Positions 39,998 through 59,398 of a stretch of 64,000 nt of DNA are shown here, piece by piece (the first letter of the stretch is position 1; the number at the start of each line of letters is the position of its first letter). The notes below the pieces were generated by a model. The model was not told where the DNA came from and did not search any database. It worked only from the letters and a program-made list of their open reading frames with translations. The position numbers were made by a program, and so were the translations under genes. This DNA is from Minisyncoccota bacterium. GTDB lineage: Bacteria; Patescibacteriota; Microgenomatia; UBA1400; PJMF01. Where the stretch lies: the NCBI GenBank assembly GCA_018657765.1, contig JABHWM010000018.1, positions 266,873 through 330,872 on the forward strand. The letters run 5' to 3'.

Positions 39998-42097
39998 TTA
40001 CTCAGTTGGAGGAGAGTAATCATCAATAGTGTAATAACCAGCATATTGCTTTGGATTAGAGTTATTTTTTTTAGAAACTTCTACTTTTTTATTATCATTT
40101 TCTTTTTTTGTATTTGATTCAGTTACTTTAATCTCTTCATTCTTAGAAGTTTGTTCTACTTTAATTTCATTATTAATTGCAGTTTTATTTTGTTGTTCTT
40201 GTTTTTCTTTTCTTTTCTTTAAAAACGAAGGTTTATGTTTATTTTTTTCGGCTTCTAGTTTTTGTTGCTTTTCTTTTTTTAATTTTTTTATTTCATCTTG
40301 TCTACGAAGAATCTCTTCTGGATTTGTAGTAATAACTTCATGTTCTTCATCACTAGCTACAACTTTTAGAGCAACGTGATTTTGACCAGCAAAGAAAACA
40401 CCTTCTCCAACATCTGCCGAGACAAGTAGTTGTCTTTCTCCTTCAGAAAGGTAAAAAGTCTCTGCTAATACAGGAATTGAAGCTGTAGACTGTTTCATTA
40501 AGAATTGAATAGAAGCGTTACTAACAATAGCTTTTCCATAATCATTATGTAAAAAGTCTTCTACATCCTGGGTAATAGTGGTGATTCCTAGATAATATTT
40601 CCTGGCTCTTTTTACCATAGAGTGAATAAAAGAAGCACTATCTTGATGTTTCATGAAATACCAAGCCTCATCAATAACAAGAACTCTTTTCTTGAGGTTT
40701 TTCTTTATTCTTGTCCAGATAAAGTCTAGAATAATAAACATTGCAACAGGGCGTAGTTCTTCTTCCATTTCTTTTACAGAAAAAACAGTAAACGGATTTG
40801 TAATATTAATATTAGATGGTTTGTCAAAAATACCTCTAGAAGATCCAGTAATAAACTTCTCTAAACGAGCAGCTATATCATTAGCATGTTCATTTTCCAT
40901 ACCTATAAGAGCTTTATAAAGATCTTCCATCAGAGGAGGTTCATTAGTTTGAGTAACTGGATCTGGAGTTATTCCTTTGGCTTTGTAAGCAGCAATTAAA
41001 GCTCTATCTAATAAAGCATCTTGTTGAGCAGTCATTTCACCAAGCATGACTTTAAGAAGTCCATGAAGTGTGAGAATTTTCTGTCCAAGTTCATTTTCAC
41101 CTTCTTCATACATTGCAGAAAGATCAAAAGGATTAATTTTTGTATCTGATCCAAAAGTAAAGTTAATATATTCACCACCTACTTTATCTGAAAGCTCTTC
41201 ATATTCATGTTCTGGATCAAGAACAATAACTTCAGCATCAAACATTAACTGTCTAATTATTTCTAATTTTACTGTGTATGATTTTCCTGCACCAGATTTA
41301 GCAAAGATAACCATATTTGCATTTTCCATTTTAAAACGATCAAAAATCACTAATGAATCATTATGTTCATTTATTCCATAAAGAACACCTGTTTCCATGG
41401 TCAACTCTGAAGATGTAAAAGGAAAAGTAGTTGCCAAAGAAGTAGTATCCATATTTCTGGTAACAAGAAGTTTATCTTTACCCATTGGTAAAGTTGTTTT
41501 GAAACCCTCATCCATCTGCAACGTCGCTTTTTTGGAAACAATAAGTAAAGAACCCATCATTGATTGGATGTTTTTTGTTACTTTATTTAGGTTATCTAGG
41601 TTGGGAGCTGTCAGAGTTATATAAAGTCCAAATTGAAAAAATCGTTCTGATCCGGCAGCTAGTTGTTCTCTAATAGTACGGGCATCACTTAGTTTAATTT
41701 CTGTATTAATATTACTAATTTTTCCAGATCTAACATCAGATTGAATTTCAGCTTCCATTTCTGTAATTTTTCTTTTGAGATTATCCAAAACTTCAGAAGA
41801 ATCTACTGGATAAACAAACATCGAAATATTTGCTTGATTAGGATAGTTGATGAGCGGGGATAACCAGTTAGCTGGAACTGTTCTAGGATATCCGGCAACA
41901 AAAAGAGTTCTAGTATATGTTGAGTTTATTTGTTGAAAAGTAAAATCTACCTCTATTGCCTCAGGGGCAATAATATCCTGAATAGTCACTAGTCCTTGAG
42001 AGAACTCTCTAACTTTCTCCATTTCTTTTTGCTCTTGAGTTAGTTTTACAGGAGCATCAGATTTATTTTTATTTAGAAAAGGCAGTTGAAAAGGCAT
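39998..42097 (-). CDS. VirB4/TraC-like type IV secretion ATPase
   Basis: Walker A FAKSGAGKSYTVKLEI; VIVLDPEHEYEEL; Walker B RVLVIDEAWYFMKH; TITQDVEDFL. Confidence 0.92.
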   Translation of the reverse strand: MPFQLPFLNKNKSDAPVKLTQEQKEMEKVREFSQGLVTIQDIIAPEAIEVDFTFQQINSTYTRTLFVAGYPRTVPANWLSPLINYPNQANISMFVYPVDSSEVLDNLKRKITEMEAEIQSDVRSGKISNINTEIKLSDARTIREQLAAGSERFFQFGLYITLTAPNLDNLNKVTKNIQSMMGSLLIVSKKATLQMDEGFKTTLPMGKDKLLVTRNMDTTSLATTFPFTSSELTMETGVLYGINEHNDSLVIFDRFKMENANMVIFAKSGAGKSYTVKLEIIRQLMFDAEVIVLDPEHEYEELSDKVGGEYINFTFGSDTKINPFDLSAMYEEGENELGQKILTLHGLLKVMLGEMTAQQDALLDRALIAAYKAKGITPDPVTQTNEPPLMEDLYKALIGMENEHANDIAARLEKFITGSSRGIFDKPSNINITNPFTVFSVKEMEEELRPVAMFIILDFIWTRIKKNLKKRVLVIDEAWYFMKHQDSASFIHSMVKRARKYYLGITTITQDVEDFLHNDYGKAIVSNASIQFLMKQSTASIPVLAETFYLSEGERQLLVSADVGEGVFFAGQNHVALKVVASDEEHEVITTNPEEILRRQDEIKKLKKEKQQKLEAEKNKHKPSFLKKRKEKQEQQNKTAINNEIKVEQTSKNEEIKVTESNTKKENDNKKVEVSKKNNSNPKQYAGYYTIDDYSPPTE

Positions 42098-42105
42098 CTT
42101 TATCC

Positions 42106-42111
42106 ATTGTA
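42106..42111 (-). promoter_or_regulatory. -10 box (TACAAT) 8 nt upstream of the VirB4-like ATG
   Basis: Reverse complement TTACAAT-GGATAAAG-ATG. Confidence 0.55.
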
Positions 42112-42193
42112 ACTAAATTAAAGTTTTAGTGTAAGAACCAGACCAGTATTAAAATGATCTATTTTTATTTATTTTGTTATTTATTAATCTTAT

Positions 42194-43375
42194 TTATAAT
42201 TCTGCAACAGGAGGTAGCTTCTGTTTTTTTACTTCTAAAATAGGTTTTTGATCTTTAGACTGAGGTTGTGTAATGGGTGGTTCTACTACTGGAGAGTTAA
42301 TAGGAGCTTGTTGGACAACAGGTGTTTCAATAGCTAGTTTCAAGTTATTTATTTTATTTTGAGAAGAATCTTCAATAATATTTGTTTGGAGATTACCTTT
42401 TTTACTTTCAGTTTGAAAAATAGTTTGTTCCTTTTTTATTTGTGGAGGAATATTTTGAGGAGGTAAAGAATCTAATTCAACATTATTTTGTGGAACATTA
42501 ATAGTAGCTGTAGATTTAGGTGTATTTTGATCTAGATTAGTAGCATCTGGGGTTTCAGGAATATCTTTTGGAACAACTGCAGACTCGGTTATATCTGCTG
42601 TACCTGCTTCTGGAATTTCTTCTGGAGAGTTGAATGTTTCTTTATTTGAATTATTATCTTGAGTTAAACTCTCAAGAGGAGCAAGATCTGGAGTCGTTTG
42701 TGCTTGAACACCCATTGTCGTGTAGCTCTGATTATCTGTAATCTGTTGCCCTTCATAAGCTTCTGGATTGTAACTATTATAAAAGAACTCAATAATTTCT
42801 TGAGTTAATATTTGTCTAGCATAAAGACCAATTCTATTAAATTGAGCAATAAGGTGATCTCTTCTTGGTTCTAAAACACCTATTCCTTTTTCCAAAATAG
42901 CTGTTTTTTGTTCTCTAGTTAAATCGGGGACACTTTTTCCAGGTAAAACACTTTGTGGAGTAATCATACCTACTTCGCCAGGGTTTGCTGGAATGACTAC
43001 ATAGAATTTCTTATCAAGAACATTTCTTTCTTTAATGAGTTTTCCAACAAATCCTTGATATCTTTTAATTAATTCTTTTTTATTATTAGTTGATGCTTTT
43101 TCTGCTTGTTCATCTAATAGGTGAAGGTAAGCAGTAGCATCTTTGGTCTTTGAACTAATAATAATTTGAATAGGAAAATTCAATGAGTTTAATAAAGAGG
43201 CATAAGCATAGATAATAGCATCTTGTTCTTGTTCTGCTAAAAGGCCAAAATTCATAGCACTAACTACCAAAATCATTGAGATAGTACCATCTTTTAGGAT
43301 CACTACATCGCTAGTAATATCAAAAATATCTAAGAATTTTTGGGTAGTAGAAGAAATTTCATTAACGTCTGGCAT
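42194..43375 (-). CDS. TraC-like/VirB4 N-terminal-like protein with disordered C-terminus
   Basis: FLDIFDITSDVVILKDGTISMILVVSAMNFGLLAEQEQDAIIYAYASLLNSL; located between PrgI and VirB4; Q/P/N-rich tail. Confidence 0.6.
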   Translation of the reverse strand: MPDVNEISSTTQKFLDIFDITSDVVILKDGTISMILVVSAMNFGLLAEQEQDAIIYAYASLLNSLNFPIQIIISSKTKDATAYLHLLDEQAEKASTNNKKELIKRYQGFVGKLIKERNVLDKKFYVVIPANPGEVGMITPQSVLPGKSVPDLTREQKTAILEKGIGVLEPRRDHLIAQFNRIGLYARQILTQEIIEFFYNSYNPEAYEGQQITDNQSYTTMGVQAQTTPDLAPLESLTQDNNSNKETFNSPEEIPEAGTADITESAVVPKDIPETPDATNLDQNTPKSTATINVPQNNVELDSLPPQNIPPQIKKEQTIFQTESKKGNLQTNIIEDSSQNKINNLKLAIETPVVQQAPINSPVVEPPITQPQSKDQKPILEVKKQKLPPVAEL

Positions 43376-43447
43376 ATTTATATCTATGGTACTAGAAAAC
43401 TAGAGTAAGTCGCAATGTGTAAACTTATTTAGGAATTTTTTGTTTTT

Positions 43448-44506
43448 TTATGTAGACCTTAATTCTAGAGGTTCTACTATTTTTCCACTAAGAGAGATAG
43501 TTTTTTCTTCAAAACTAAGATTTTGTTTTTGTACAGAAACAATATAACTACCATTTGGTAGAGCAGTACTTATAGAAAATTGACCAAGCAAGTTTGTTTT
43601 TAAAGCATGAATAACTTTACCCTGAGTATTTTTAATTTGGATAGTAGCTTGATCTACTAATTTATTATTAGTTGTTAAAACCATTCCTACAAGAACATTG
43701 GGTTTATCTGGTTGTTTTGGAAAGGGGAGAGAATTACTAGTATCTACTTTTTTGTCTGGAACAACATAACTCTGCTGGTTTGATTTTTCTACAGCAACAG
43801 CTGGTGTTGCAATATTTAAGGATTCTTTATTATTAATAGGTTGTTCTGGAGTTAGTTTCCGTTTATTTTTTACTTTTAATGTTTGTTGTTGCTGTTGTTG
43901 AAAAACAATATTTTCTCTATTAGATTTTTTTAAATTTTCTTTTTTTGCCAGATTTCTTACTTTTGGAGTAAGGTTTGGTTTTACTTTTTGAGGAGTTGAT
44001 TTAACTTTATCAACTTCAACTTCCTCATACATAGATAGAATTTCTTGCATTCTTATTTGTTCTGCACTATCCATCTGGTTTATTTTTTTAGGGTTATTAA
44101 CAGAACTGAGATATTCTTTGATTCTTTGTCTTCTTGCTGGAGAAAGATCTATATTAACAGCTTCTTCTTCCTCTTTTGTTTCTTGTCTTTTTTTGTGAGT
44201 AAAAGCAAAAGGAATAGAGGTTTCTTTTTTCCAGTAAAATTTTGTAGGGCTATAAATTCTTTTGAAAAAAACAGAAATCCAGTGATCTAATGGTCTTTCT
44301 TCAATAGGAACAAAAGCCACCATTACCCCAAATCCAGCTGATAAAATAATAAGAGTCCATTTTATAATTCCAATAAGATTAGTGCTGTAAATAATGACAC
44401 CAATGATTACTCCCACAGCAATAAAGGCAAATTGCTTGAGGGTCATGTTTCCGACAATATGGAATTTATATCCTACAACATCGGTAGGAATAGGATGTTC
44501 ACGCAT
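43448..44506 (-). CDS. PrgI family protein with C-terminal carboxypeptidase-regulatory (Ig-like) domain
   Basis: MREHPIPTDVVGYKFHIVGNMTLKQFAFIAVGVIIGVI...VPIEERPLDHWISVFFKRIYSPTKFYWKK; C-terminal VTTNNKLVDQATIQIKNTQGKVIHALKTNLLGQFSI. Confidence 0.82.
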   Translation of the reverse strand: MREHPIPTDVVGYKFHIVGNMTLKQFAFIAVGVIIGVIIYSTNLIGIIKWTLIILSAGFGVMVAFVPIEERPLDHWISVFFKRIYSPTKFYWKKETSIPFAFTHKKRQETKEEEEAVNIDLSPARRQRIKEYLSSVNNPKKINQMDSAEQIRMQEILSMYEEVEVDKVKSTPQKVKPNLTPKVRNLAKKENLKKSNRENIVFQQQQQQTLKVKNKRKLTPEQPINNKESLNIATPAVAVEKSNQQSYVVPDKKVDTSNSLPFPKQPDKPNVLVGMVLTTNNKLVDQATIQIKNTQGKVIHALKTNLLGQFSISTALPNGSYIVSVQKQNLSFEEKTISLSGKIVEPLELRST

Positions 44507-44624
44507 ACTGTGTTTATCTTAGCGTTTCTGAGTGGTGGTTTCTAGTCCCGATAGAATTTTTTAATTTAGCTTATTTATAGTTAATAGTACTCTTAAAAGA
44601 GTATTTTTATTTTTAATAACTTTT

Positions 44625-45590
44625 CTACTCTGAAATTTTTACTGCTGGAGTTATTATTTCTGCTTGGATTGTTTTACCTTCATTATTTACTAGTTCTCCA
44701 GAAAAACGGTAGAAAGGATAACCGATGGCTTCTTTGGTATCTACTCTATATTCAAAACTAACTTTTTCTAAATCTCCAGATTTAATATCTTTAATGCTAT
44801 ATAAAGCTCCATCATCACTATAAGAGTTAATAATAACTGCTTGTTCGTTGTTTATATTTTCTATAGCTTTTTCTATAGAGATAGTAGATAAACTATTATC
44901 TGTTGGAAAAACAGCTAATAAATCAGATTGAAAAACAATTTTTTGAACTTCATATTCTGCATTAACAATAACCGAGAATAAAGGAGCTGGTTTATGATCA
45001 ATAAAAACAGGAATAGAGTTAATGGAGTAAGTAAAAGGTATTTCTACAGCATTAGCCTCATTTCTTTCACCAAGATGCATTTCTATTTCACCATGTAGAT
45101 ACCTTATGTTCTTACTAAGAGTTTTAGTTTCAATATTTGGAAAAACTTCAGAAATAAATGTTTCAGCACTTTTAATAGCTTTATTAACATCAGTAACTAA
45201 ATTGGGTTTAATATAACTTTTTTTGGAAAAAGTGTACTCATCATTTATATTATTATAAGAAAGTGAGTAGCTTTCTCCAGTCCAAAGAGTATTTAATGAA
45301 GGATGTCTTTTTAATTGATATTTTTGAATTAAATTGTCTTTGATATCATCGACAGTTGTACTACTAAATTGCACGCCAAGTGAAGATATCTTTTTGGGTG
45401 TTTTTATTGATTGACCTACAAAATATATTTGAGAAAAAGTTGTCTTTTCATTATCTCTGTTAGTATTAATAAAAGTTGTTTTTTCAACAACACTTTCTTG
45501 TGGAGTTATTAATCTTATAAAAATAACAATAATAAAACTAATAATAGAAACTATTAGTAATTTCTTTTTCCAATTATTTTTATTCATCAT
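44625..45590 (-). CDS. Hypothetical membrane-anchored extracytoplasmic protein
   Basis: Single N-terminal TM then ~290 aa soluble domain; start overlaps the end of the upstream gene. Confidence 0.6.
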   Translation of the reverse strand: MMNKNNWKKKLLIVSIISFIIVIFIRLITPQESVVEKTTFINTNRDNEKTTFSQIYFVGQSIKTPKKISSLGVQFSSTTVDDIKDNLIQKYQLKRHPSLNTLWTGESYSLSYNNINDEYTFSKKSYIKPNLVTDVNKAIKSAETFISEVFPNIETKTLSKNIRYLHGEIEMHLGERNEANAVEIPFTYSINSIPVFIDHKPAPLFSVIVNAEYEVQKIVFQSDLLAVFPTDNSLSTISIEKAIENINNEQAVIINSYSDDGALYSIKDIKSGDLEKVSFEYRVDTKEAIGYPFYRFSGELVNNEGKTIQAEIITPAVKISE

Positions 45591-48500
45591 AACAACTCCT
45601 TACAGGATCGCCTGGTTTTATACTTAGTCCATCTGGCATCATTGGAGCTAGCCCAGAAGGAGATGAGTTCCTTCCATATTTGGCCCAGTCTAAATGAACT
45701 CCTCCCATTCCTGTTGTTCCCATAAAGCCAATGACATCTCCTGGAGAAACTTCTTTACAACCACTATCTATGCCATTTGTTGCATGCATATGAGAGAACT
45801 GAAAAGTTCCTTTATCTCCAGCATCTAACATGACGTGTATTCCATAAATACTAGAGTCTCTAGTTCCTGGACAGGCAGTTCCTTCAAATGGAGTATATAT
45901 AGGAGTTCCTTCTGCATTAACAATATCGAAAGCATCCCATATTTTATGGGTAGATCCAGAGCCCTGATTGAAAGGTAGTTGTAGCATTACTCCACTAGCA
46001 GGCCAGCAACCTTCTCCCTGTGAATAGTCACCAACATAAATAACCTCTCCTGTAACAGCAGTATCAGTACCTTCTTTACCTGTTTCTGGATCTTTTCCAA
46101 ACACTTCTAGCTGGAAACTATTTAGTATAGATGCATCATTATATTTCTCATCAAAACTCTCTGAGTAACTTAAAGATACTTCATCACCTGGTTCTAAAAT
46201 CATTCCTTCATAGAGTTCTGTAAAATCTAGTATTTCTTTTACTCTATCTGGAATATTAGGAACTGGTTTACCTTTTTCTTCCCAAGCTTTTTTACTGTGA
46301 TTTACTTTGAGAGTATCTTGGGCATTTAATATCTGAATTGTATAGTTTCCTTTTGGTTTAATAACAATAGTATATTCTACTTCTAGAGGAAAAGATGGAG
46401 TTTCACATTTATTTTCTGGACAACCAACAGCAAAAGCTCTTTTTTCTATAGTCACATATTCAGAAAGTTTTCCTTCTGGCCCTAAAGAGGCTGTAGCTAA
46501 CGGATCTACCACAGGAAAATCTGCCAATAAAGCACCTGTCTCTATAGCTCTCATCATCATGTTTCCACCAGCAAGTACAGCAACTGTACCAAGAATAGCT
46601 TGACCAGCAATATGATTGGCCCCAATGTGTGTTAGTGTTTCTCCTAAAAAATCAGTTGGTTGAAATGTAGTTCCAAGGCCAGCTTTTGCCAACCCTGTTT
46701 CAGCTCCAGTTGGAGCTCCTTTGAAAGCTTCTGTTCCTGGAAAACCAAGCTTTCCTCTAGGTTGAATAATATTAGGTCTGCTAGCACCACCACCAAAAAG
46801 TTTTGAGAGACCTTGTTCTAGACCATAGCCAGTCCATCCACCAGCAATAGATCCTGCAACAGCTCCACCTGGGCCACCTACTAATCCTCCAATTATTCCA
46901 CCAGCAGCGGCTCCAATTCTTCCTCCCCAGGACATAAGAGGAACAATAAGTGACATTAATCCAGCAGCTCCACCAGCTATAAGTAGTTTTCTGCCTTTTT
47001 TTGTGGAGGCTAGTTTTGCGATGATACCAAGAGCTGGGTTTATAGACCCTGCTGCAAGGGTGGTTGCCTTACTAACTCCCTTTTCTGCTATTTCTTGAGC
47101 AACCTTTTCTTTGGCTTTTTTCCCAAATTTAGACTTCAAACCCTTTGCAGCTTTTTTTAAAGCTTTAGTTTTTCTTTTGGCATTTTTTTGAAAATTACGA
47201 ACACCAGACACAGGATTTTTTATTTGCAAATGTGGAGAAATAATAGAAGAGGAAACTCCATTATCATGAGATTGGTCATATGTTCCTCCAGTTAGGGCGA
47301 GACTAAGGTCTCTAGGAACAAAAGTTGTGTCTGTTGCGATGTTTTGTAAGACTTTAGGATCATCACTATATCCAAGTCTATTGAGAATGAGTATTCTATT
47401 TTTTTCTGGTATTACTTCCCATTGTTTACTTCGGAAAAGTTCTGCTTTTTCTCTATTTGTAGGAGATTCTTTTCCATGAATAAAGCCCACAACTTCTCTA
47501 GGTGAAGAATGAATGTCTTTGGATTTTTTTTGAAAAGCTATTATTGGTCTTACAACAGAGGTTTTAACAAACTCATGGTGCTCTTCTTTTGAAAGGAAAC
47601 CTTCTTTATTTTCTAAAAGTGCTAGAGTCTCCTGTAAAACAAAAAGTTGTTCATTGAGTAAAAGAACATTACCTGTATCTCTTGCTAAAACTGATTTTCT
47701 AAGAGAATTTACTTTTTTGAGTGAAAGTAAAAACTCTTTATTATATGGAATATCATCTCCAAAAAGAATTTTAAATGATTTTTCGTCAAGGTGTTCAAAA
47801 ACCTCTTCTGGAAGTCTTATTCCTCCTGCTGCAGAATCTATAATATTTGTTACATTTAGCTTTGCTAAAGCAATTTTATCTGCAGATACACCTATTCTTT
47901 TGAGTTCTTTTTCTAAAAATTCATCACTTTCTTTAGTAAGGTAGTTAGTGTCATTCTTTACTATTTTTTCTTTGGCTAAAGACTCTAAAATAGGTTTTAG
48001 TTGTTCCTGTATCTCTGGATTACTAGCTAATTCTTTGATAAGAGGTTTTACACTAGTTTGTTTTTCTGCCTCAGTAATTGCTTTTTCTATTTGTTCTTTT
48101 ACTTTTGAATCTGTTGTTGTTTCTAGAGTGTTAACAATATGTTTGTTGACAATATTTAGTGCTGAAGAATCGTTATATATCAAACCAAGATATTCACCCA
48201 TTAGTGTTAGTCTAGTTTCTGGACTTGTTAGTTTATCTAGGTTTCCTTTACCTATTACAGATGAGAAAAAGCCCATTGTCTTTTTTGATAAGGCCTCTCT
48301 TAGTTCTTGAGAATTTTGTAAAGTTCCAGGTGGTAATCCATTTTGTTTTTCTAGCTGAACAAGTGCTATTTGACTAAAAAGAATTGATTGGTCTCTAAGT
48401 TCTTTACTAAATAGAAGCTTTTTTGTTTCTAGAGGGTCTAGGCGTTTTACTGAATCTTTATCTTTGGGTGTTTCTGTGGTTTTTGTTTCATCTATATCAT

Positions 48501-49170
48501 CTCCATCTGCAGGAGAATCTGAAGATTTTTTACCGGGAGATGTTTTTTTTGAATCTTCTTCAAAGCTTAGATCTATAGTTTCTTTTTCATCAGTGCTATC
48601 TTCATCTGTTTTTTCTTCACCATCATCTTCAGTATCTTCCCCAAAAACATCATTAAGGAAAAAAGTAGTAATCGGTTTTATATAGTTTGTGAGAAGCCCA
48701 TTAAGATCTTTATCTTGAGAATCTGTGATTTTGTCATCAAAATTAGAGCCATCACAGTAGAGGAGAATAGCAGATAACTGATTAGTGATATCATCACTAG
48801 TTTTTTTATTTTCTTTTTTTTGGTAATTAGTAATAAAACTATTTATGTCAGAGCTATTTACTGCCAAGAAAGACTTTACTATTTTAAAGAAAAAGAAGGC
48901 TATGTCACTTTTATATAAAAAGAAATCTGGATTTTCTCCTTCTTCTAATTGGGATCTATCATTTGTTGTAAAGTAAAGAGTAGATGAAGCTTCATTTTTT
49001 ATATTTTCAAAAATACTAGAAAAAGGATAATCTATTCTGGAATAATTTTGTTGAAGATTACTTCTATTAAGAATATCCAAAAAACGCTTAATATTATCTT
49101 TTGTTAGGGGTGTTCTGGCTTTTTTTAGAACAAATGGGCCACTGCTAGTTTTTTGTGATCTATCAGACAT
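45580..49170 (-). CDS. Very large T4SS-associated protein with glycine-zipper membrane segment and C-terminal M23-like peptidase domain
   Basis: Glycine zipper GGRIGAAAGGIIGGLVGGPGGAVAGSIAGG; M23-like HKIWDAFDI...GTPIYTPFEG...FSHMHATNG...VSPGDVIGFMGTTGMGGVHLDW. Confidence 0.75.
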   Translation of the reverse strand: MSDRSQKTSSGPFVLKKARTPLTKDNIKRFLDILNRSNLQQNYSRIDYPFSSIFENIKNEASSTLYFTTNDRSQLEEGENPDFFLYKSDIAFFFFKIVKSFLAVNSSDINSFITNYQKKENKKTSDDITNQLSAILLYCDGSNFDDKITDSQDKDLNGLLTNYIKPITTFFLNDVFGEDTEDDGEEKTDEDSTDEKETIDLSFEEDSKKTSPGKKSSDSPADGDDIDETKTTETPKDKDSVKRLDPLETKKLLFSKELRDQSILFSQIALVQLEKQNGLPPGTLQNSQELREALSKKTMGFFSSVIGKGNLDKLTSPETRLTLMGEYLGLIYNDSSALNIVNKHIVNTLETTTDSKVKEQIEKAITEAEKQTSVKPLIKELASNPEIQEQLKPILESLAKEKIVKNDTNYLTKESDEFLEKELKRIGVSADKIALAKLNVTNIIDSAAGGIRLPEEVFEHLDEKSFKILFGDDIPYNKEFLLSLKKVNSLRKSVLARDTGNVLLLNEQLFVLQETLALLENKEGFLSKEEHHEFVKTSVVRPIIAFQKKSKDIHSSPREVVGFIHGKESPTNREKAELFRSKQWEVIPEKNRILILNRLGYSDDPKVLQNIATDTTFVPRDLSLALTGGTYDQSHDNGVSSSIISPHLQIKNPVSGVRNFQKNAKRKTKALKKAAKGLKSKFGKKAKEKVAQEIAEKGVSKATTLAAGSINPALGIIAKLASTKKGRKLLIAGGAAGLMSLIVPLMSWGGRIGAAAGGIIGGLVGGPGGAVAGSIAGGWTGYGLEQGLSKLFGGGASRPNIIQPRGKLGFPGTEAFKGAPTGAETGLAKAGLGTTFQPTDFLGETLTHIGANHIAGQAILGTVAVLAGGNMMMRAIETGALLADFPVVDPLATASLGPEGKLSEYVTIEKRAFAVGCPENKCETPSFPLEVEYTIVIKPKGNYTIQILNAQDTLKVNHSKKAWEEKGKPVPNIPDRVKEILDFTELYEGMILEPGDEVSLSYSESFDEKYNDASILNSFQLEVFGKDPETGKEGTDTAVTGEVIYVGDYSQGEGCWPASGVMLQLPFNQGSGSTHKIWDAFDIVNAEGTPIYTPFEGTACPGTRDSSIYGIHVMLDAGDKGTFQFSHMHATNGIDSGCKEVSPGDVIGFMGTTGMGGVHLDWAKYGRNSSPSGLAPMMPDGLSIKPGDPVRSCYDE

Positions 49171-49237: not shown

Positions 49238-51049
49238 CTATATCAGTCCAGCAACAAATGAACCAAGGCCTACAGATGTTGGAATATCTTTTGTTGGAGG
49301 TTTTTTTTCAGAAAGAGAATTGTTTTTGAATTTTTTTGTAGAAGGAGTTCCGGCTCCAGAAGAATCATAATTCATCTCACAATTAAGACACCAGCTGCAT
49401 TCTCCGATCCAAGTATTATCAGTGCCACATTTTAGACAGCTTCCCATTTTCCATTCTTTAGCTCTATCATTACCAATAAAATTGGATAAATCCATTCTAG
49501 ATAAGCTAGCTGGATTTAAAGCTCCATTGGCTTGTAAGTTAGCCAATTGCTGGACACTACTAAAAGGACTGAGAGCCACACATTCCACCAGAGAAGTATC
49601 AAAAGCTTTTATAGCAGAGGAAAAACCAAGACTACTGGATAAAGATAAAGCAAAGGCTTCTTCATCTAGGTTGCCAAATTTTTTGAAATGTTCAAATAAA
49701 GAAAAACGTTTTTTTGTAGATATTTTTTTTGTATCCAGAATACCGGCCAGAACAACTCTTTTCATAAAGTTTTCTAACTTTTGCACAGAAGAAGGGCTTG
49801 TTTGTTGCCCTGGTGTTGTTTCTTTTTCTACCACATCTAGTAATAACTCAGCATATTCTTCTAGAGAAGATTCCATTTTTTTGATTTTATTTCTGGTGAT
49901 TTTTTGTTGGAGTCTTTTGAAGAATTTTTTTTCTGGGAAAAGAGTGAAGAAAGTTTCTGAAGCTGTTTTTGTATGAAGGTTTTCTGGAAGAGTAATGAGT
50001 GTGTTCATTATAAATTCTTCTTTTTTTGCAAATTCTAGATTTTCAAAGTTACTAGGAGTTTTTTTACCAAGAGATCTGAAAAGTTTTGTATGATCATCCC
50101 ATCCTTTAGGAGCCATGTGTTGATCATGAAGGAGGATAAATCTATTTAATTCTGGGATAAAAACTGGTTGAGCGATGACGATAATACTGAGATTTCCTTC
50201 ATGAATAGCAGATTGGGGCATGACATAGAGATATTTGGGGCCTAGAGAAATAGAACCAGCGTGATTTTCTATTCCCATTTTTTTACGGACATCTGGTTGG
50301 ATGAAAGTAAAAGATTTTGTTGGAGAAAGAGTTTTCCAGCCTTTGCTTTCTAGCTCTTGAGTTGTTTGTTCTGCAGAGTGGGGGAGAGTTCTGTTTTCTT
50401 TTAAGTTCTTTGAAGGTGTTGAATCAATTTCTGACTGATTTTTTGCCAAAAGAGAAATTAGGGCATGTGGAGAATTAGAAAAAATACTCTGTAAAGCTTG
50501 GAGAAGGTTTTCTATCTGCTTTTTTTCCAAACCATATCTGGCTTTTTCTGCTTGGTTGATAGCTATAGATTCTACAGCTTCTTCACAAATTTGGAGTAAA
50601 TCAGGACGGAGTTTATATAAATCATCATAAAGAGCTAGATTTCCAGCTGGTTTTTGAGAAATATCATAAGCCAGGTGAGTTATGGGTAGTTTTTGTGTTT
50701 CTGAAAGAATAGAGCGGAAGAAATATACTAAGAGGTCTTTTTGTTCTTGTCTGTTATTGAGGGGTATTACTTCTCTGATGATAAAGTTGAGGATAACAAT
50801 GAGTTTGTCTTGGGAAGGGTTGGGAATTTCTGGGATGAGTGTGGTCTGTTTTTCTTTTTCTGTTTGTTTTTGTAAATTAGTAAGTAAAGAAGTATTCTCT
50901 AGCTTATATTTTGAAGAAGTCGCTGGTTTTCTTGAGATAGATTTTTCTACTGGAGTAGGGAAGATTTCTCTAAAAAAAGCTGCAGGAATAGAACCTGTCG
51001 GCAAGACTGAGTTTGATGGTTGGTCAAAAATTATTGGTTCATGTAACAC
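49238..51049 (-). CDS. Hypothetical protein with C-terminal zinc-ribbon-like motif, head of the minus-strand T4SS-region gene run
   Basis: CLKCGTDNTWIGECSWCLNCE; start revised to GTG 51049 (AGGAG-N5-GTG) from the TTG at 51085 in the ORF track. Confidence 0.65.
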   Translation of the reverse strand: MLHEPIIFDQPSNSVLPTGSIPAAFFREIFPTPVEKSISRKPATSSKYKLENTSLLTNLQKQTEKEKQTTLIPEIPNPSQDKLIVILNFIIREVIPLNNRQEQKDLLVYFFRSILSETQKLPITHLAYDISQKPAGNLALYDDLYKLRPDLLQICEEAVESIAINQAEKARYGLEKKQIENLLQALQSIFSNSPHALISLLAKNQSEIDSTPSKNLKENRTLPHSAEQTTQELESKGWKTLSPTKSFTFIQPDVRKKMGIENHAGSISLGPKYLYVMPQSAIHEGNLSIIVIAQPVFIPELNRFILLHDQHMAPKGWDDHTKLFRSLGKKTPSNFENLEFAKKEEFIMNTLITLPENLHTKTASETFFTLFPEKKFFKRLQQKITRNKIKKMESSLEEYAELLLDVVEKETTPGQQTSPSSVQKLENFMKRVVLAGILDTKKISTKKRFSLFEHFKKFGNLDEEAFALSLSSSLGFSSAIKAFDTSLVECVALSPFSSVQQLANLQANGALNPASLSRMDLSNFIGNDRAKEWKMGSCLKCGTDNTWIGECSWCLNCEMNYDSSGAGTPSTKKFKNNSLSEKKPPTKDIPTSVGLGSFVAGLI

Positions 51050-51296
51050 AAAAGCTCCTCTATTTAGAGGAGCATCGGGAGGCAAGTTTATTGTTTCTAT
51101 GCAGTTTTTTGCAAAAAAATATGCCCGATGCTCGTCGGAAAGAATTTTTTTTAATTCTTTCTACTTCATTTTTTTATAAAAAAACGAAGGTAGCACTCTG
51201 ACCGGACTTGTCTTTTTCTAGAGAAAATTTATCTAGTAAAAGCGTTACCGTTGCGGCACAGTCCCAGGATCTAACTGGACTTCCGAGTGGTAAGTG
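51047..51296 (-). ncRNA. Candidate cobalamin-like riboswitch plus translational expression platform
   Basis: Minus strand: CACTC-GGAA-[GTCCAGTTAGATCCTGGGAC]-[ACTG-TGCCGCAA-CGGT]-AA-CGC-[hairpin]-AAGTCCGGTCA-GAGTG, followed by 10-bp antisequestor and 8-bp SD-sequestering hairpins. Confidence 0.5.
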
Positions 51297-51425
51297 ATTT
51301 ATAGCATAGAGGAGGGAGGGGTGTCTATATAAAAATGATAAAAATAGATGTTTATAATAAAAAAACTATGAGATGTCTTTATAGAGGTTTTTTTGAAGGA
51401 AAAATGGTAAAATATATTAAAGTAT

Positions 51426-53997: not shown

Positions 53998-55716
53998 TTA
54001 TTCATTATCATGGTCATGAATAACATTTCCTCCACCACCATCTAATCTTTCCACAACATCTTCAAAATCTTCCATTCTTACTTTTCTCTTATGTCCTTCA
54101 GGATTATATCTTTTATCTAATGGATCAGTTGCTAAATTTAATATATCTGGCTGATTAGCATTTGTTTTACGACTTATATAGTCAGCTGCTTTAAATGCTG
54201 GTTCAGCCCATTTTCTTCCTGCATATGCGCCAGTTTTATTTGCTTTTGCTTCTTTTATTTTTTCAGGGTCAGTTGGGATAGCTGCCTCTATAGATTGACC
54301 CATAGATGCGCCACCTCTTTTCGCTTTATAAAATTCATTAGCCATACCAGCTGCACCTCTAACACCACCAAGACCCAATGCTACCCCTCTTGTTCCAAGA
54401 GGAACACCTTCTTTAGCTTGACTTACTGCCTTCATAGCCAACGTTTCCCAGATACCACCATCTATCTTCATAGCTTTTTTCATCTCTGCTATAAGTTCTG
54501 GGATTATAAGAATAATACCAATACCAACAAGACTCATAATGACACTACCAGATCCTCTACCTATAAGATAAGGAGGCATAAAACCACCAGTACTGAGGTC
54601 ACCCTTGGTAAACATCTCATAGAGAATAAGAGAAAATAAAACCATAGGGAAAGCCAATAGATTACCAAAAACTAATTTCATCCAATATCCAACATTTGCT
54701 TTACCAGGGATAGCTCCCATCATCAGTAGAATCGGAGCCATAACAATAGCAATAATAATAGTAATGTAAATCTTGAGTAGTTCGAAAAATAATTTGAAAA
54801 CTCCGATCAAAATAGCTATAGAGATAATAAGCCCCAACGTAAGGCCACCAATCCATCCAAGAACGTCACCAATGGCACTAGTGTTAATAGATGCTGCAAA
54901 TTCTTTTACAGCTTCATTCATATTAGCAAAAGCTCCATTATTATTTACTCCAGTAACAAGATCCCAGCCTATTTGGATGAAGGTTTTACTCATCAGTTCT
55001 GTCCCGCCTTCTGGTTTGAACAAACCAATCATCAGATACATTAGTAAGTACATAAGGTCTATCAAAAATCCAGCAATAGCATACGAGAAAGTAACAAAGA
55101 CTAGGGCAACAACTATTCCAGGAATAGCTTGCTGAGCAGTAACAACAGCTTGTCCATCAATTTTCTGGCGGAACATAATCATAAAACCAATAATCAAAAA
55201 GATTGCTACAAAGAAGAAGTAAGCAACATTTCTGAATACTTTCCAGGTTTCTAGTACTGGATCTAATGATGCAAAACCCAAACCTTGAGCTTGAGCTCTG
55301 GGGATAATATGTGCATCTTGTAAAAGTCCTGCTACATAGGTAGTTCCAGAAGCAGCAGGAGTGTAGAGCATGGCTATTGCCTGAGTTGTTTGGCCAATTA
55401 GTCCGCCATTACCATATTTTTCATAAACGAGTCTTTTTTCTTCATCTGTTGCATTCATCATGGCAGTTGTAGATGGGCCAGCAACAGTTAATAGTCCATC
55501 TGCCTGAAGTATTTCTGATGTTTTTGGAAGATGTTTTTCTAGGTCTGTAGAATTTGGATCTTTTAAGCTTTCAATAAGACTATTTGTATTTTTTTCTATA
55601 CTTTTATTTTTTTTGAATAATTCCCAAAAAGGGACAGCTCTAGCCGGTTTTGCTGCAGCAAAAGAACTTACTATAAGGAAAACAAAGAAAATAGCGACCC
55701 GGGTGAGATGCTTCAT
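53998..55716 (-). CDS. VirB6/TrbL-like polytopic membrane protein
   Basis: Signal peptide, about 6-7 hydrophobic segments including LFFELLKIYITIIIAIVMAPILLMMGAIPGK, soluble C-terminal tail. Confidence 0.7.
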   Translation of the reverse strand: MKHLTRVAIFFVFLIVSSFAAAKPARAVPFWELFKKNKSIEKNTNSLIESLKDPNSTDLEKHLPKTSEILQADGLLTVAGPSTTAMMNATDEEKRLVYEKYGNGGLIGQTTQAIAMLYTPAASGTTYVAGLLQDAHIIPRAQAQGLGFASLDPVLETWKVFRNVAYFFFVAIFLIIGFMIMFRQKIDGQAVVTAQQAIPGIVVALVFVTFSYAIAGFLIDLMYLLMYLMIGLFKPEGGTELMSKTFIQIGWDLVTGVNNNGAFANMNEAVKEFAASINTSAIGDVLGWIGGLTLGLIISIAILIGVFKLFFELLKIYITIIIAIVMAPILLMMGAIPGKANVGYWMKLVFGNLLAFPMVLFSLILYEMFTKGDLSTGGFMPPYLIGRGSGSVIMSLVGIGIILIIPELIAEMKKAMKIDGGIWETLAMKAVSQAKEGVPLGTRGVALGLGGVRGAAGMANEFYKAKRGGASMGQSIEAAIPTDPEKIKEAKANKTGAYAGRKWAEPAFKAADYISRKTNANQPDILNLATDPLDKRYNPEGHKRKVRMEDFEDVVERLDGGGGNVIHDHDNE

Positions 55717-55826
55717 TGTAGTGATTATTGTACGTCAAGAACAATAAAAGGCAAACCTGCAAAAAGGTAAAAACACTCGATTGAATACTACAAAATAGTA
55801 CAAATATAGTCTATACTATCTCTTAC

Positions 55827-56678
55827 ATGATAGCGCTAGAACAAGTTAATTCTCTCAAAGAATATTTTGAATCAGCAGAAACAATAGCTGTTGTTTTGGG
55901 TGCAAAACCATCAGTAGATCAAATTGCTCTTGCTAGTGCAGTTTTTGAAGGTTGTAAATCTCTTCAAAAAGATGTCGGCTTATATTCCCCCAAAAAAATT
56001 AAAGATGAACATTTTGAATCTTTAGAAAACATACAGACAGAACTTGGTAAACAAAACTTAGTTATGTCCTTTGACTATGATGAACAAGCTGTTGATAAAG
56101 TTAGTTATCATATCGGAGAAGAAACAAAGAAGTTTTATCTCACTATAAAACCAAAAAAAGGAAATATTCCTTTGGATCCAAAAACAGTTGATTTTTCTTA
56201 TGCTGGGGCAGACATAGATCTTATTTTCTTAATAGGTGTTCATGATCTAGAAACTCTAGATCAATTATATTTTGGTTATGAATCATTATATGAAAATAGC
56301 TATGTAGTGACCTTTCATACTTTCAAACCAGAAATAGGAACTACTCAGTTTGATTTATCTGGTGCCAGTAGCATGAGTGAGGGAGTTATTGATATCTTGG
56401 AAAGTCTGGGTATGAGTCTTAATGAACCAATGGCCACTTCGTTATTGATGGGTCTTGAGACTGCTACGAAAAATCTACAGTCTTTAACTACTACAGCAGA
56501 AACTTTTGATAGTGTTGCAAAGTTACTACGAGCAGGAGCTAGAAGAATCAAAAGAAAAGAATCTCCGACTATTACTTTGACAGCAGAAAAGAAAAAAATA
56601 GTTCGTAGGAAGATAAAAAAAGTTTTGAAGAAATCTTCTACAAAAACTGCAGCAAAAATAACCGTTTCAAAAAAGTAA
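55827..56678 (+). CDS. Degenerate DHH-type phosphoesterase-like protein with basic C-terminal tail
   Basis: Fold-like pattern SVDQIALASAVFEGC...DIDLIFLIGVHDLETLD...SGASSMSEGVIDILESLG...TSLLMGLETAT; canonical DHH replaced by FHT; Lys/Arg-rich tail. Confidence 0.55.
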   Translation: MIALEQVNSLKEYFESAETIAVVLGAKPSVDQIALASAVFEGCKSLQKDVGLYSPKKIKDEHFESLENIQTELGKQNLVMSFDYDEQAVDKVSYHIGEETKKFYLTIKPKKGNIPLDPKTVDFSYAGADIDLIFLIGVHDLETLDQLYFGYESLYENSYVVTFHTFKPEIGTTQFDLSGASSMSEGVIDILESLGMSLNEPMATSLLMGLETATKNLQSLTTTAETFDSVAKLLRAGARRIKRKESPTITLTAEKKKIVRRKIKKVLKKSSTKTAAKITVSKK

Positions 56679-56743
56679 ATGGAAAAGATTTTTCAAAGTA
56701 TAAAAATATAAGTTTAGAGTTTAATAAATAGATTGAATTCTAT

Positions 56744-59398
56744 TTATTTAATGTTCCCACAATCCATTGTAAAAGTATCCATAGTACAGACACAGTAATT
56801 AGCTCCGCCACAACCATCTACTTCTTCATAGTCTCCACAAGCTGGTTGAACAAGGTTTTCTAGAGGAACTCCATAGTTTCTACCAGCCATCATGTAGTAA
56901 AGTTGTTCTGTAGATGGGGTAGAGCCATTAGCAGTTTTATATTGTTCTACAAGCCAGCCTCTTTCTGATTTTCTTTTTCGCAAAGTATAATCTAGCTGAG
57001 TTTTTATATCACAAGCTACATCTGGATTTTCTCTAGATTCTTTGATCCATGGGTCTGTCGTATCAGTTATAAATTCATCAGCTTGAGGACAACCATCTTT
57101 ATCAATACATTGAGGAATCAAGACACCTGTTATTTGTGAAGCTCCACAATCATTAACGATAATATCTCCACAACTCATGCTTTTTTCTCCAGCTAATATT
57201 TTTCGTAGCATCGGGCTGGCTTCTATTTGTAATAATCCCCAAAGTAACTGAGCATCATTAGGATCATTACCAGCAGTACTGCAAGTTAATCTCATGAGTT
57301 CATTCATTGTTGGTAGGTTTACTGTCAAAGCTTTTAGATCTGTGCATGATTTTTCTTCTGCATTTGGATCATCTATATTATCTGGGTCATATCCCTGACA
57401 TCTTCCTAGAAAGAGATCTTCTGTTCTTTTACAGTCTTTTATATAGTCATGGGCTTTGGTACCAATTCCTCTGAGTGTTTCTTGTATTTTTCTAATAGTC
57501 CAACCAAGCTCTCCTCCAAGAATTCTCATTGGTTCCTGGGGATTTTCTGCAACACTCCCTGTAAATTCTTTTGTAGGGCATTGTTCACAATAAGGGCTGT
57601 AACCATCTTCATTTTTTTTGGGACAATGTTCTACACAGCCAGGTGGTTGGTGATAAATAAAACTGAAAGTATCTGATTCACTTTTCAGATTTGCACTAGT
57701 TTCAATGAATGTAAGATTTTCTGGGATGATGCCACATTTTCCATCAAAATCTTCTACACAGTTATTCTCTACAATATTTTTGAATTCTTCTGTAGTAAAC
57801 ATTTGTTGGAGAGTTTTATTAATATAATCCATATCAGAGCCATATGGAGTAACTAGGTGAGCTCTAACTGCTATTGGATCAAGATCAAGGGCACCATTCA
57901 CTTCAGTATCTTTGACAATAATATTCCAGTCAAAACCATAATTATCATCTGAAGGAATCACCCTAGAGAAAAAAGGATCACGAAATTCTCGTTGATTGTC
58001 TTCATTAACAATAGCGTTAGATCCTAGCTCACTTACTATTTCATAAGATCCTTCAAAGCCTCCACAGCTTTGTCCTGCTCCATTTATTTGGTCTATAAGA
58101 GATCTGAGTAAATAACTTTCTGGTTTACTAGGAGAGAGAATACATTGGGGAAGTGCTCCACAGTTTATAATAAGTTCATCTCTATTTTCTGGTCTCAGTT
58201 TGAATGCAATATCTCCTATATATTCGGCTCTTTCTTTTTTGATGTCATCAAGGTGTTTTTCTATTCTTTCTGCAGGACTTAGTAAATAGCTTGTTATTTT
58301 GGCCGAATCTGTAAGATTGGGTAAAGAGAAAATCATATTAGTGGCTGTTATTGGTACTTTAAAACCAATAACTATAGGAGCATGTTTTTTGATAGGCATT
58401 CTCTCATGAGTTGCTCCCCATACTGGAGCTGGTTTTTGTATTTGTAAGAAGTCAAAAATATCTTTATTTGAATCAAATAAACTTGGGTTAACTTTTTCAT
58501 TTCCTTCCATAACATTTTGTTTTATGGAAACTACCAAAAAAGCCAATCTATATAAGCCATCTATATTAAGCGGCATTTTGGTAATAGCTTCTTCTATTGG
58601 TTCTATGTCTTTTTTGAATTCTGATTGACTAATTCCAAATTCTTCCTGCATATCTGGATTCCATCCGCTCATAAGATCACTACAGCTAAAGTTTTTATCT
58701 GGATTTAATTTACTTTTTCTTTTGAATAGAGCTCTTGTTGTTTCAAAGAGACCAAAGGCTCCAAACTCAGAGCCAGGAGCTCCTACCTGGTTTACATAAC
58801 AGGGCCCACCATTTTCGAATTTGTCACAAAAGTATCTATTATAGACACTATAAAGATTGTTGTACTTTACAACACACTGTTGTTCTCTAGACATAAGTGC
58901 AGTGGCAACTCCAGAAGAGTTTAATTCATCTGAAGAAGTTTTTAGATTATTTGCACCAAAATAACCTTCGTATGAAGAAATCTTTGTAGTATCTGGAAAA
59001 TCTTCATCACCTTGGAATAGGGGAATCTTCCCTTCTGCAAATTTTCCTTCATAACTAGCACCGGCTGTTAATCTAACTGGTTTTTCATATTCTTCAAAGT
59101 ATTGTCTGATTGATCCACTGACTTGTCCGCTAATCCACCATTTTGGTTTTGCGCACTGAACTTCATAACCTTGGTCGTAGGCCATTTGGTAGGTGATAAT
59201 ATCTTGGAGTTCGTCAGTATCTCCTATTGAATATTTATCATCTAAAACAAGAGGTAGATAGTTATAAACCTCTGGATCTTTACGAGTATAGTTAACAGCA
59301 TCATCACTAGATGCAGCGTTTACTAGAGAGTTTTTCCCAATGAAAAACAGAAAGAAAGAAAAAATAGCTAGTAATGTAATAGAAAATTTGAGTTTCAC
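56744..59398 (-). CDS. Large secreted Cys-containing T4SS-region protein
   Basis: GTG start, signal peptide, many Cys pairs (e.g. CVEHCPKKNEDGYSPYCEQC), no obvious TM after the signal. Confidence 0.65.
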   Translation of the reverse strand: MKLKFSITLLAIFSFFLFFIGKNSLVNAASSDDAVNYTRKDPEVYNYLPLVLDDKYSIGDTDELQDIITYQMAYDQGYEVQCAKPKWWISGQVSGSIRQYFEEYEKPVRLTAGASYEGKFAEGKIPLFQGDEDFPDTTKISSYEGYFGANNLKTSSDELNSSGVATALMSREQQCVVKYNNLYSVYNRYFCDKFENGGPCYVNQVGAPGSEFGAFGLFETTRALFKRKSKLNPDKNFSCSDLMSGWNPDMQEEFGISQSEFKKDIEPIEEAITKMPLNIDGLYRLAFLVVSIKQNVMEGNEKVNPSLFDSNKDIFDFLQIQKPAPVWGATHERMPIKKHAPIVIGFKVPITATNMIFSLPNLTDSAKITSYLLSPAERIEKHLDDIKKERAEYIGDIAFKLRPENRDELIINCGALPQCILSPSKPESYLLRSLIDQINGAGQSCGGFEGSYEIVSELGSNAIVNEDNQREFRDPFFSRVIPSDDNYGFDWNIIVKDTEVNGALDLDPIAVRAHLVTPYGSDMDYINKTLQQMFTTEEFKNIVENNCVEDFDGKCGIIPENLTFIETSANLKSESDTFSFIYHQPPGCVEHCPKKNEDGYSPYCEQCPTKEFTGSVAENPQEPMRILGGELGWTIRKIQETLRGIGTKAHDYIKDCKRTEDLFLGRCQGYDPDNIDDPNAEEKSCTDLKALTVNLPTMNELMRLTCSTAGNDPNDAQLLWGLLQIEASPMLRKILAGEKSMSCGDIIVNDCGASQITGVLIPQCIDKDGCPQADEFITDTTDPWIKESRENPDVACDIKTQLDYTLRKRKSERGWLVEQYKTANGSTPSTEQLYYMMAGRNYGVPLENLVQPACGDYEEVDGCGGANYCVCTMDTFTMDCGNIK

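Follow-up and report, generated by a model that had tools for sequence, protein, structure and literature searches.

Two competing helices in the leader of a secretion operon

What is controlled by a pair of competing RNA helices in front of an uncharacterised gene, and in answer to which signal? The question arises on the minus strand of a 64,000-nucleotide (64-kb) stretch of DNA from a Minisyncoccota bacterium (assembly GCA_018657765.1, contig JABHWM010000018.1, positions 266,873 to 330,872; hereafter the window, to whose minus strand and numbering the features below refer), where they lie in the leader of the first gene of a type IV secretion operon. Comparison with related genomes indicates that the feature is a real and conserved cobalamin-class riboswitch expression platform, and very probably the two helices form the output of an OFF riboswitch for cobalamin (vitamin B12; probably adenosylcobalamin, AdoCbl), acting at the level of transcription, translation or both.

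The first helix, H_A (an anti-terminator or anti-sequestor), is formed by a 5' arm at 51124-51133 (GAGCATCGGG, as RNA GAGCAUCGGG) and its perfect complement at 51070-51079 (CCCGATGCTC, as RNA CCCGAUGCUC). The second, H_T, is an 8-bp terminator-like hairpin at 51054-51073 (DNA GCTCCTCT-AAAT-AGAGGAGC, RNA GCUCCUCU-AAAU-AGAGGAGC), which sequesters the Shine-Dalgarno (SD) sequence AGGAG (51055-51059) in its 3' arm and is followed directly by the U-run UUUU (TTTT in the DNA, 51050-51053) and then the GTG start codon (51047-51049). An earlier note on this DNA had placed the 10-bp helix, the 8-bp hairpin, AGGAG, TTTT and GTG on the minus strand, in each case exactly to the base. The window has a single hairpin of at least 8 bp with its 5' arm overlapped by a 10-bp competitor farther upstream; no such arrangement arose when the window was shuffled as a whole (12 times) or in 20,000 dinucleotide shuffles of the local sequence.

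The note had also described the helices as mutually exclusive, which holds over a short segment only. H_A and H_T have just 4 nt (GCUC) in common, so that 6 bp of H_A can coexist with the complete hairpin, at equal predicted energy (-25.3 vs -25.2 kcal/mol). This exact overlap is present in about half of 30 loci of the bacterial family, as counted by an automatic scan that misses some. The only other genome of the genus compared (G001), in which the downstream protein is 62% identical to that of the window, keeps both helices, whose conservation the note had proposed examining, along with the hairpin, UUUU and GTG. The same comparison gives good support to the proposed gene start at GTG 51049: the window reading frame is open farther upstream, to TTG 51085, whereas G001 has an in-frame TAA immediately before the 3' arm of the hairpin and no other start codon nearby downstream.

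A cobalamin-class aptamer

The element directly upstream, which had been called aptamer-like, proves to be a real aptamer of the cobalamin class with covarying helices (51192-51289; P1 51289-51285/51198-51194; core CUGUGCCGCAACGGU; AAGUCCGGUC). Over 22 pairs in 77 distinct sequences, 88.5% of cells are paired with 418 double changes, a result matched by 0 of 500 shuffles, slid controls reaching at most 54%. An Rfam scan at the gathering threshold gave no match in the window, nor did a scan of the window genome with RF00174; a permissive scan matched AdoCbl (RF01482) over 51303-51164 with 28.1 bits (E 0.0034; gathering 50). RF01482 and AdoCbl-II (RF01689) are the best Rfam matches of the aptamer, and several relatives exceed the gathering scores: six of 20 scanned reach the AdoCbl cut-off (50-58 bits) and one that of AdoCbl-II (40.7). 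The window copy, in contrast, falls below the cut-off, with a shortened P1/P2 region and a diverged L4 loop.

A covariance model built from two sequences (R1) found the element in 31 of 48 family genomes, and an improved model (R2), against which the window aptamer scores 71.6 bits, in 35 of 48 family genomes, 55 of 94 genomes of the order and 106 of the 384 phylum genomes sampled, and a genome rarely has more than one copy. When named genomes were scanned with a pattern, five records matched, bearing the titles Patescibacteria group, Saccharibacteria, Parcubacteria, Taylorbacteria and Magasanikbacteria. Full-text searches of a literature library turned up no publication describing a cobalamin riboswitch in Patescibacteria; the element is present in over a quarter of the phylum genomes sampled. 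In one genome (G015), locus L054 (13322-14638, minus strand) has a second cobalamin-class riboswitch before a fused protein resembling an ATP-cone and the beta subunit of class I ribonucleotide reductase (RNR).

P13 and its kissing loop

The earlier note drew the architecture with two helices, both correct, and missed a third, P13, and its kissing loop with L5 of the aptamer. P13/L13 is the hairpin UCCGA-CGAGCA-UCGGG at 51124-51139, whose loop and 3' side are overlapped by the 5' arm of H_A, and the loop CGAGCA pairs, with a one-base bulge, with the L5 loop UGCCG at 51254-51258. A hairpin of this type (NNGA-CGAGCA-UCNN) lies upstream of or inside the H_A 5' arm in all aligned family sequences but one, and its stem variants stay paired (CCGA/UCGG, UUGA/UCAA, CUGA/UCAG, CCAA/UUGG). 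Covariation over 29 sequences (89.7% of cells paired, 22 double changes) was equalled in 0 of 500 shuffles, with slid controls at or below 45%. The sole exception (L026) is an extra copy before a class I RNR subunit, in which CGAGCA is displaced upstream by a few bases. Phylum-wide, the hairpin takes the form UCC-CGAGCA-GGA and similar.

L5 reads UGCCG in 74 of the 78 elements, and 66 of the 78 have CGNGCA as L13; pairing of UGCCG with CG-A-GCA gives 5 bp and a single bulged base, and the single-base variants CGUGCA, CGCGCA and CGGGCA alter the bulge position alone. Where both loops have changed (GGCCG with CGCGCC in G022; also L107, L100 and L102), 5 bp are kept, against 4 with the consensus loop; L093 likewise retains 5 bp and is a weaker test, as lenient scoring permits 5 with the consensus loop too. 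Because the loops were chosen by eye, this matching is supportive and not a blind test. In published work, where the element is named P13/L13, a bulge of 1-2 nt in the helix between the two loops is reported to render docking dependent on cobalamin (PMC10907184). P13 and its kissing loop with L5 are what would couple ligand to switch here.

How the switch would work

The sequence, conservation and covariation of the aptamer, P13, kissing loop and hairpin, and the predicted ordering of energies, were established directly; from these we infer the identity of the ligand, the sign of regulation and the order of co-transcriptional events. H_A competes with P13 for its own 5' arm and with H_T for the outer 4 nt of that hairpin. 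With B12 bound, L5 would dock on L13 (CGAGCA) and stabilise P13, which would consume the 5' arm of H_A and allow the hairpin at 51073-51054 to form; the terminator-shaped hairpin would then hide the SD of GTG 51049 and the gene would be off, through transcription, translation or both. Without B12, P13 would be weak and H_A, made before the 3' arm of the hairpin is transcribed, would win, opening the outer half of H_T and permitting expression of the first gene of the operon.

Predicted folds follow this order. The free fold of 51142-51030 gave H_A at 88% and P13 at 4%; forcing P13 gave H_T at 100% with SD exposure of 0%, and forcing H_A gave a mean SD exposure of 45%. The claim that the 10-bp helix frees the SD therefore stands in direction, exposure rising when H_A forms, but not in extent, about 45% being predicted to be unpaired because a residual CUCU/AGAG helix remains. 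The shift in exposure at equilibrium is modest (21% to 0%). The H_T helix also covaries (16 sequences, 95.5% paired, 0 of 500 shuffles).

Several observations weigh against this account. Exclusivity over 4 nt makes a weak switch by equilibrium folding alone; given that overlap and the equally stable shortened H_A, strong switching would require the outcome to be settled while the RNA is still being made, which in turn favours some role for termination. H_A shows little covariation, both arms being nearly invariant across the family. The window copy, at 28 bits, is far below the Rfam cut-off of 50, and its L4 loop diverges from the GUGAAAAUC of relatives, so that ligand binding may be reduced or altered. 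Finally, activating corrinoid riboswitches exist (PMC10653944), and hence a repressive sign is not guaranteed.

Termination, translation or both

Of 34 family elements inspected, 24 (20 of 30 by pattern, with L053, L073, L074 and L133 read individually) have this hairpin as a canonical intrinsic terminator, GCUCCC...GGGAGC followed by U4-U7, and the gene usually begins farther on. The earlier description of a classical translational switch is supported insofar as the SD does lie in the hairpin, with predicted exposure of 0% with P13 against 45% with H_A, and is not supported in full, the hairpin being mostly a terminator in the family. Within this one family the output hairpin takes several forms, being a plain terminator, a terminator with the ribosome-binding site (RBS) or start codon, or absent. 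Before the genes of a 240-amino acid (aa) family (family B, below), translation starts farther downstream than the terminator, at a codon served by a separate SD. The window genus and G016 carry the SD within the stem, with GTG or TTG at the end of the U-run, and four loci (L016, L028, L030 and L035, of G010, G029, G002 and G024) lack a terminator, P13 lying directly against the ATG. Two further loci (L017 and L073, of G011 and G017) have their ATG start codon in the terminator's hairpin loop, and their coding sequence (MRSFF...) crosses the 3' arm and U-run.

The window hairpin was itself flagged as terminator-like by a scan, with its 8-bp stem and the tail UUUUGUGUUA, which has fewer than five consecutive U's. 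As it is still terminator-like and also carries the RBS, dual control by termination and SD blocking appears, from these sequence features, likelier in the window genus than control of translation alone. Since the gene starts at or inside the terminator in this genus and a few others, transcription and translation are probably blocked together in the window. Such a fusion of terminator and RBS, as in the window genus, is unusual.

Two single-level explanations compete with dual control, in which the effect would be shared between termination and SD blocking. A purely translational switch, in which the hairpin hides the SD only and RNA polymerase reads through, is somewhat unlikely but would fit the ideal spacing of AGGAG and GTG, the U-run cut to four in the window genus, and the loci in which P13 itself stands beside the ATG without a terminator. 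The hairpin plus UUUUGUGUU nevertheless still scores as terminator-like, the U4-U7 terminator is kept in most relatives, even inside coding sequence (L017, L073), and SD exposure at equilibrium moves little. We consider rather improbable a purely transcriptional attenuator, in which the hairpin is a terminator and the position of the SD is incidental. The terminator is the majority form, and the 4-nt overlap suits a co-transcriptional decision; against this, the U-run is just UUUUGUGUU, and the SD is in the stem, 5 nt before the start codon, which means that a full-length message with the hairpin formed would be poorly translated.

It is improbable to a greater degree that the RNA is a degenerate or re-tuned member of the cobalamin class, which has lost cobalamin sensing or senses another corrinoid or small molecule. 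The low Rfam score, the altered L4 loop and the failure to find the B12-binding domain PF02310 in the window genome would fit, but the core, L5/L13 and P13 are intact and conserved with G001, and the genome retains an AdoCbl-dependent RNR. That these are chance hairpins of an AT-rich, hairpin-rich leader, with no regulatory role, is already refuted by conservation and covariation across a bacterial family, besides the 20,000 unsuccessful shuffles.

Relation to known cobalamin riboswitches

Competition among P13, antiterminator and terminator is a known type of mechanism. In the B12-repressed Priestia megaterium metE riboswitch, P13 stabilised by the kissing loop permits the terminator; failing that, its 3' side goes into the antiterminator (PMC10653944). 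The window shares the predicted ordering of P13, antiterminator and terminator, but the P. megaterium L5, UCCCG, pairs contiguously, whereas UGCCG with CG-A-GCA is bulged; only the window's terminator stem also holds the RBS, with the start codon after the U-run; and the gene controlled in the window is not metE. In the translational env8HyCbl and Escherichia coli btuB riboswitches the kissing loop governs access to the RBS, as proposed here, and the loop-loop helix of env8 is likewise bulged (PMC10653944, PMC10907184). The RBS of env8 is, however, in the P13 loop itself, whereas the window has its RBS in a hairpin of its own farther downstream, and a third helix takes part in the competition.

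B12 in the window genome and its relatives

Phylum relatives of the switch precede DUF4430 and DUF6580 genes, which we take to be B12-uptake-like, and others precede operons of nrdR and AdoCbl-dependent RNR. In the window genome, searches with PF02310 and NrdJ_Z gave no match; the suggestion from these negatives that it has no B12 enzyme was rejected when an RTPR-type class II enzyme was found. This AdoCbl-dependent ribonucleoside triphosphate reductase (RTPR) lies beside nrdR and scores 263 bits (curated cut-off 340), and its sole PDB relative is RTPR 1l1l. It would accordingly make sense for this organism to sense the cofactor. Class II RNR is present in 42 of 48 family genomes, that of the window included, and the riboswitch accompanies it in 33 of these 42 against 2 of 6 without it (Fisher p 0.04), a weak association given incomplete genomes and relatedness.

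Two of the class II RNRs in riboswitch operons look intein-bearing (L091, 2275-4521; L096, 2200-4500): LAGLIDADG and intein-splicing domains were found in the former, and the latter protein gave the same split match. In a metagenome-assembled genome titled Saccharibacteria (L062, WQTP01000036.1), the element precedes an RNR-like open reading frame, and a downstream frame resembles, by eye only, a cob(I)alamin adenosyltransferase.

The first gene and the secretion operon

The gene that starts at GTG (49238-51049) encodes 603 aa. Its product had no Pfam match and no meaningful NCBIfam match, a structure prediction from the single sequence gave a mean predicted local distance difference test (pLDDT) of 35.6, and a scan of genome contigs with it found no relatives. 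It belongs to family A (about 600 aa), a cluster of 20 members which, in the loci examined, occurs only at the position downstream of the riboswitch. Two other uncharacterised families, B (about 240 aa) and C (about 360 aa), also lie directly 3' of the riboswitch, the three having been drawn from the window gene and loci L013-L040 and L090-L104. Family C occupies this position before nrdR and AdoCbl-dependent RNR genes in other families of the order. Profile comparison revealed a short region shared by families A and C (95.8% probability, 58 columns), and no homology was detected between A and B.

Co-directional with the first gene are genes for an M23-peptidase protein, a 321-aa protein, PrgI and VirB4 in two parts (39998-49170), with dnaA and dnaN (39876-36945) downstream of the VirB4 genes. 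Domain matches include PF01551, PF12666, CD1110-type VirB4 (387 bits), DnaA (443) and DnaN (287), and the gene order is the same in G001, G016, G042 and G027. Further conjugation-type genes, including one for a Mbov_0396-like membrane protein, lie at 53998-59398, beyond a divergent 832-aa gene, so the secretion cluster spans the riboswitch locus.

Ample B12 would probably lead the switch to shut off the uncharacterised first gene of the secretion-system operon. The operon is presumably co-transcribed as a whole, and the secretion genes may be co-regulated with the first gene, an interesting but unproven regulon. The type IV secretion system of the related Saccharibacteria is essential and its role has been described as completely unknown (PMC11665869). 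It is a speculative proposal, and one we hold to be doubtful, that in these ultrasmall bacteria, which have a ribonucleotide reductase of the AdoCbl-dependent class, B12 shortage turns on the whole operon together with the uncharacterised protein, perhaps for acquisition of host nucleotides, DNA or B12, the terminator having become a combined terminator and RBS. The switch offers a testable connection of B12 supply to the first-gene families, none of them characterised, and also, in a handful of genera with that of the window among them, to a type IV secretion operon.

Promoter and linker

The sequence TAGACA-N18-TATAAA at 51298-51327 is a probable promoter, assigned from its sequence and from TAGACA-N18-TATAAC at the same spacing in G001; a generic sigma-70 scan did not flag it. 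If the assignment holds, the stretch CTCCTCTAT (51314-51306) falls in the promoter spacer, outside the RNA. Long-range pairing of CTCCTCTAT with the SD, dominant in the full-length minimum-energy fold, was rejected because the stretch sits in the gap separating the probable -35 box from the probable -10 box and G001 does not conserve it. Two AU-rich hairpins are predicted between the aptamer and P13 (51189-51164 and 51161-51139); they are present with different sequence in G001 and, being absent from many relatives, are probably spacer.
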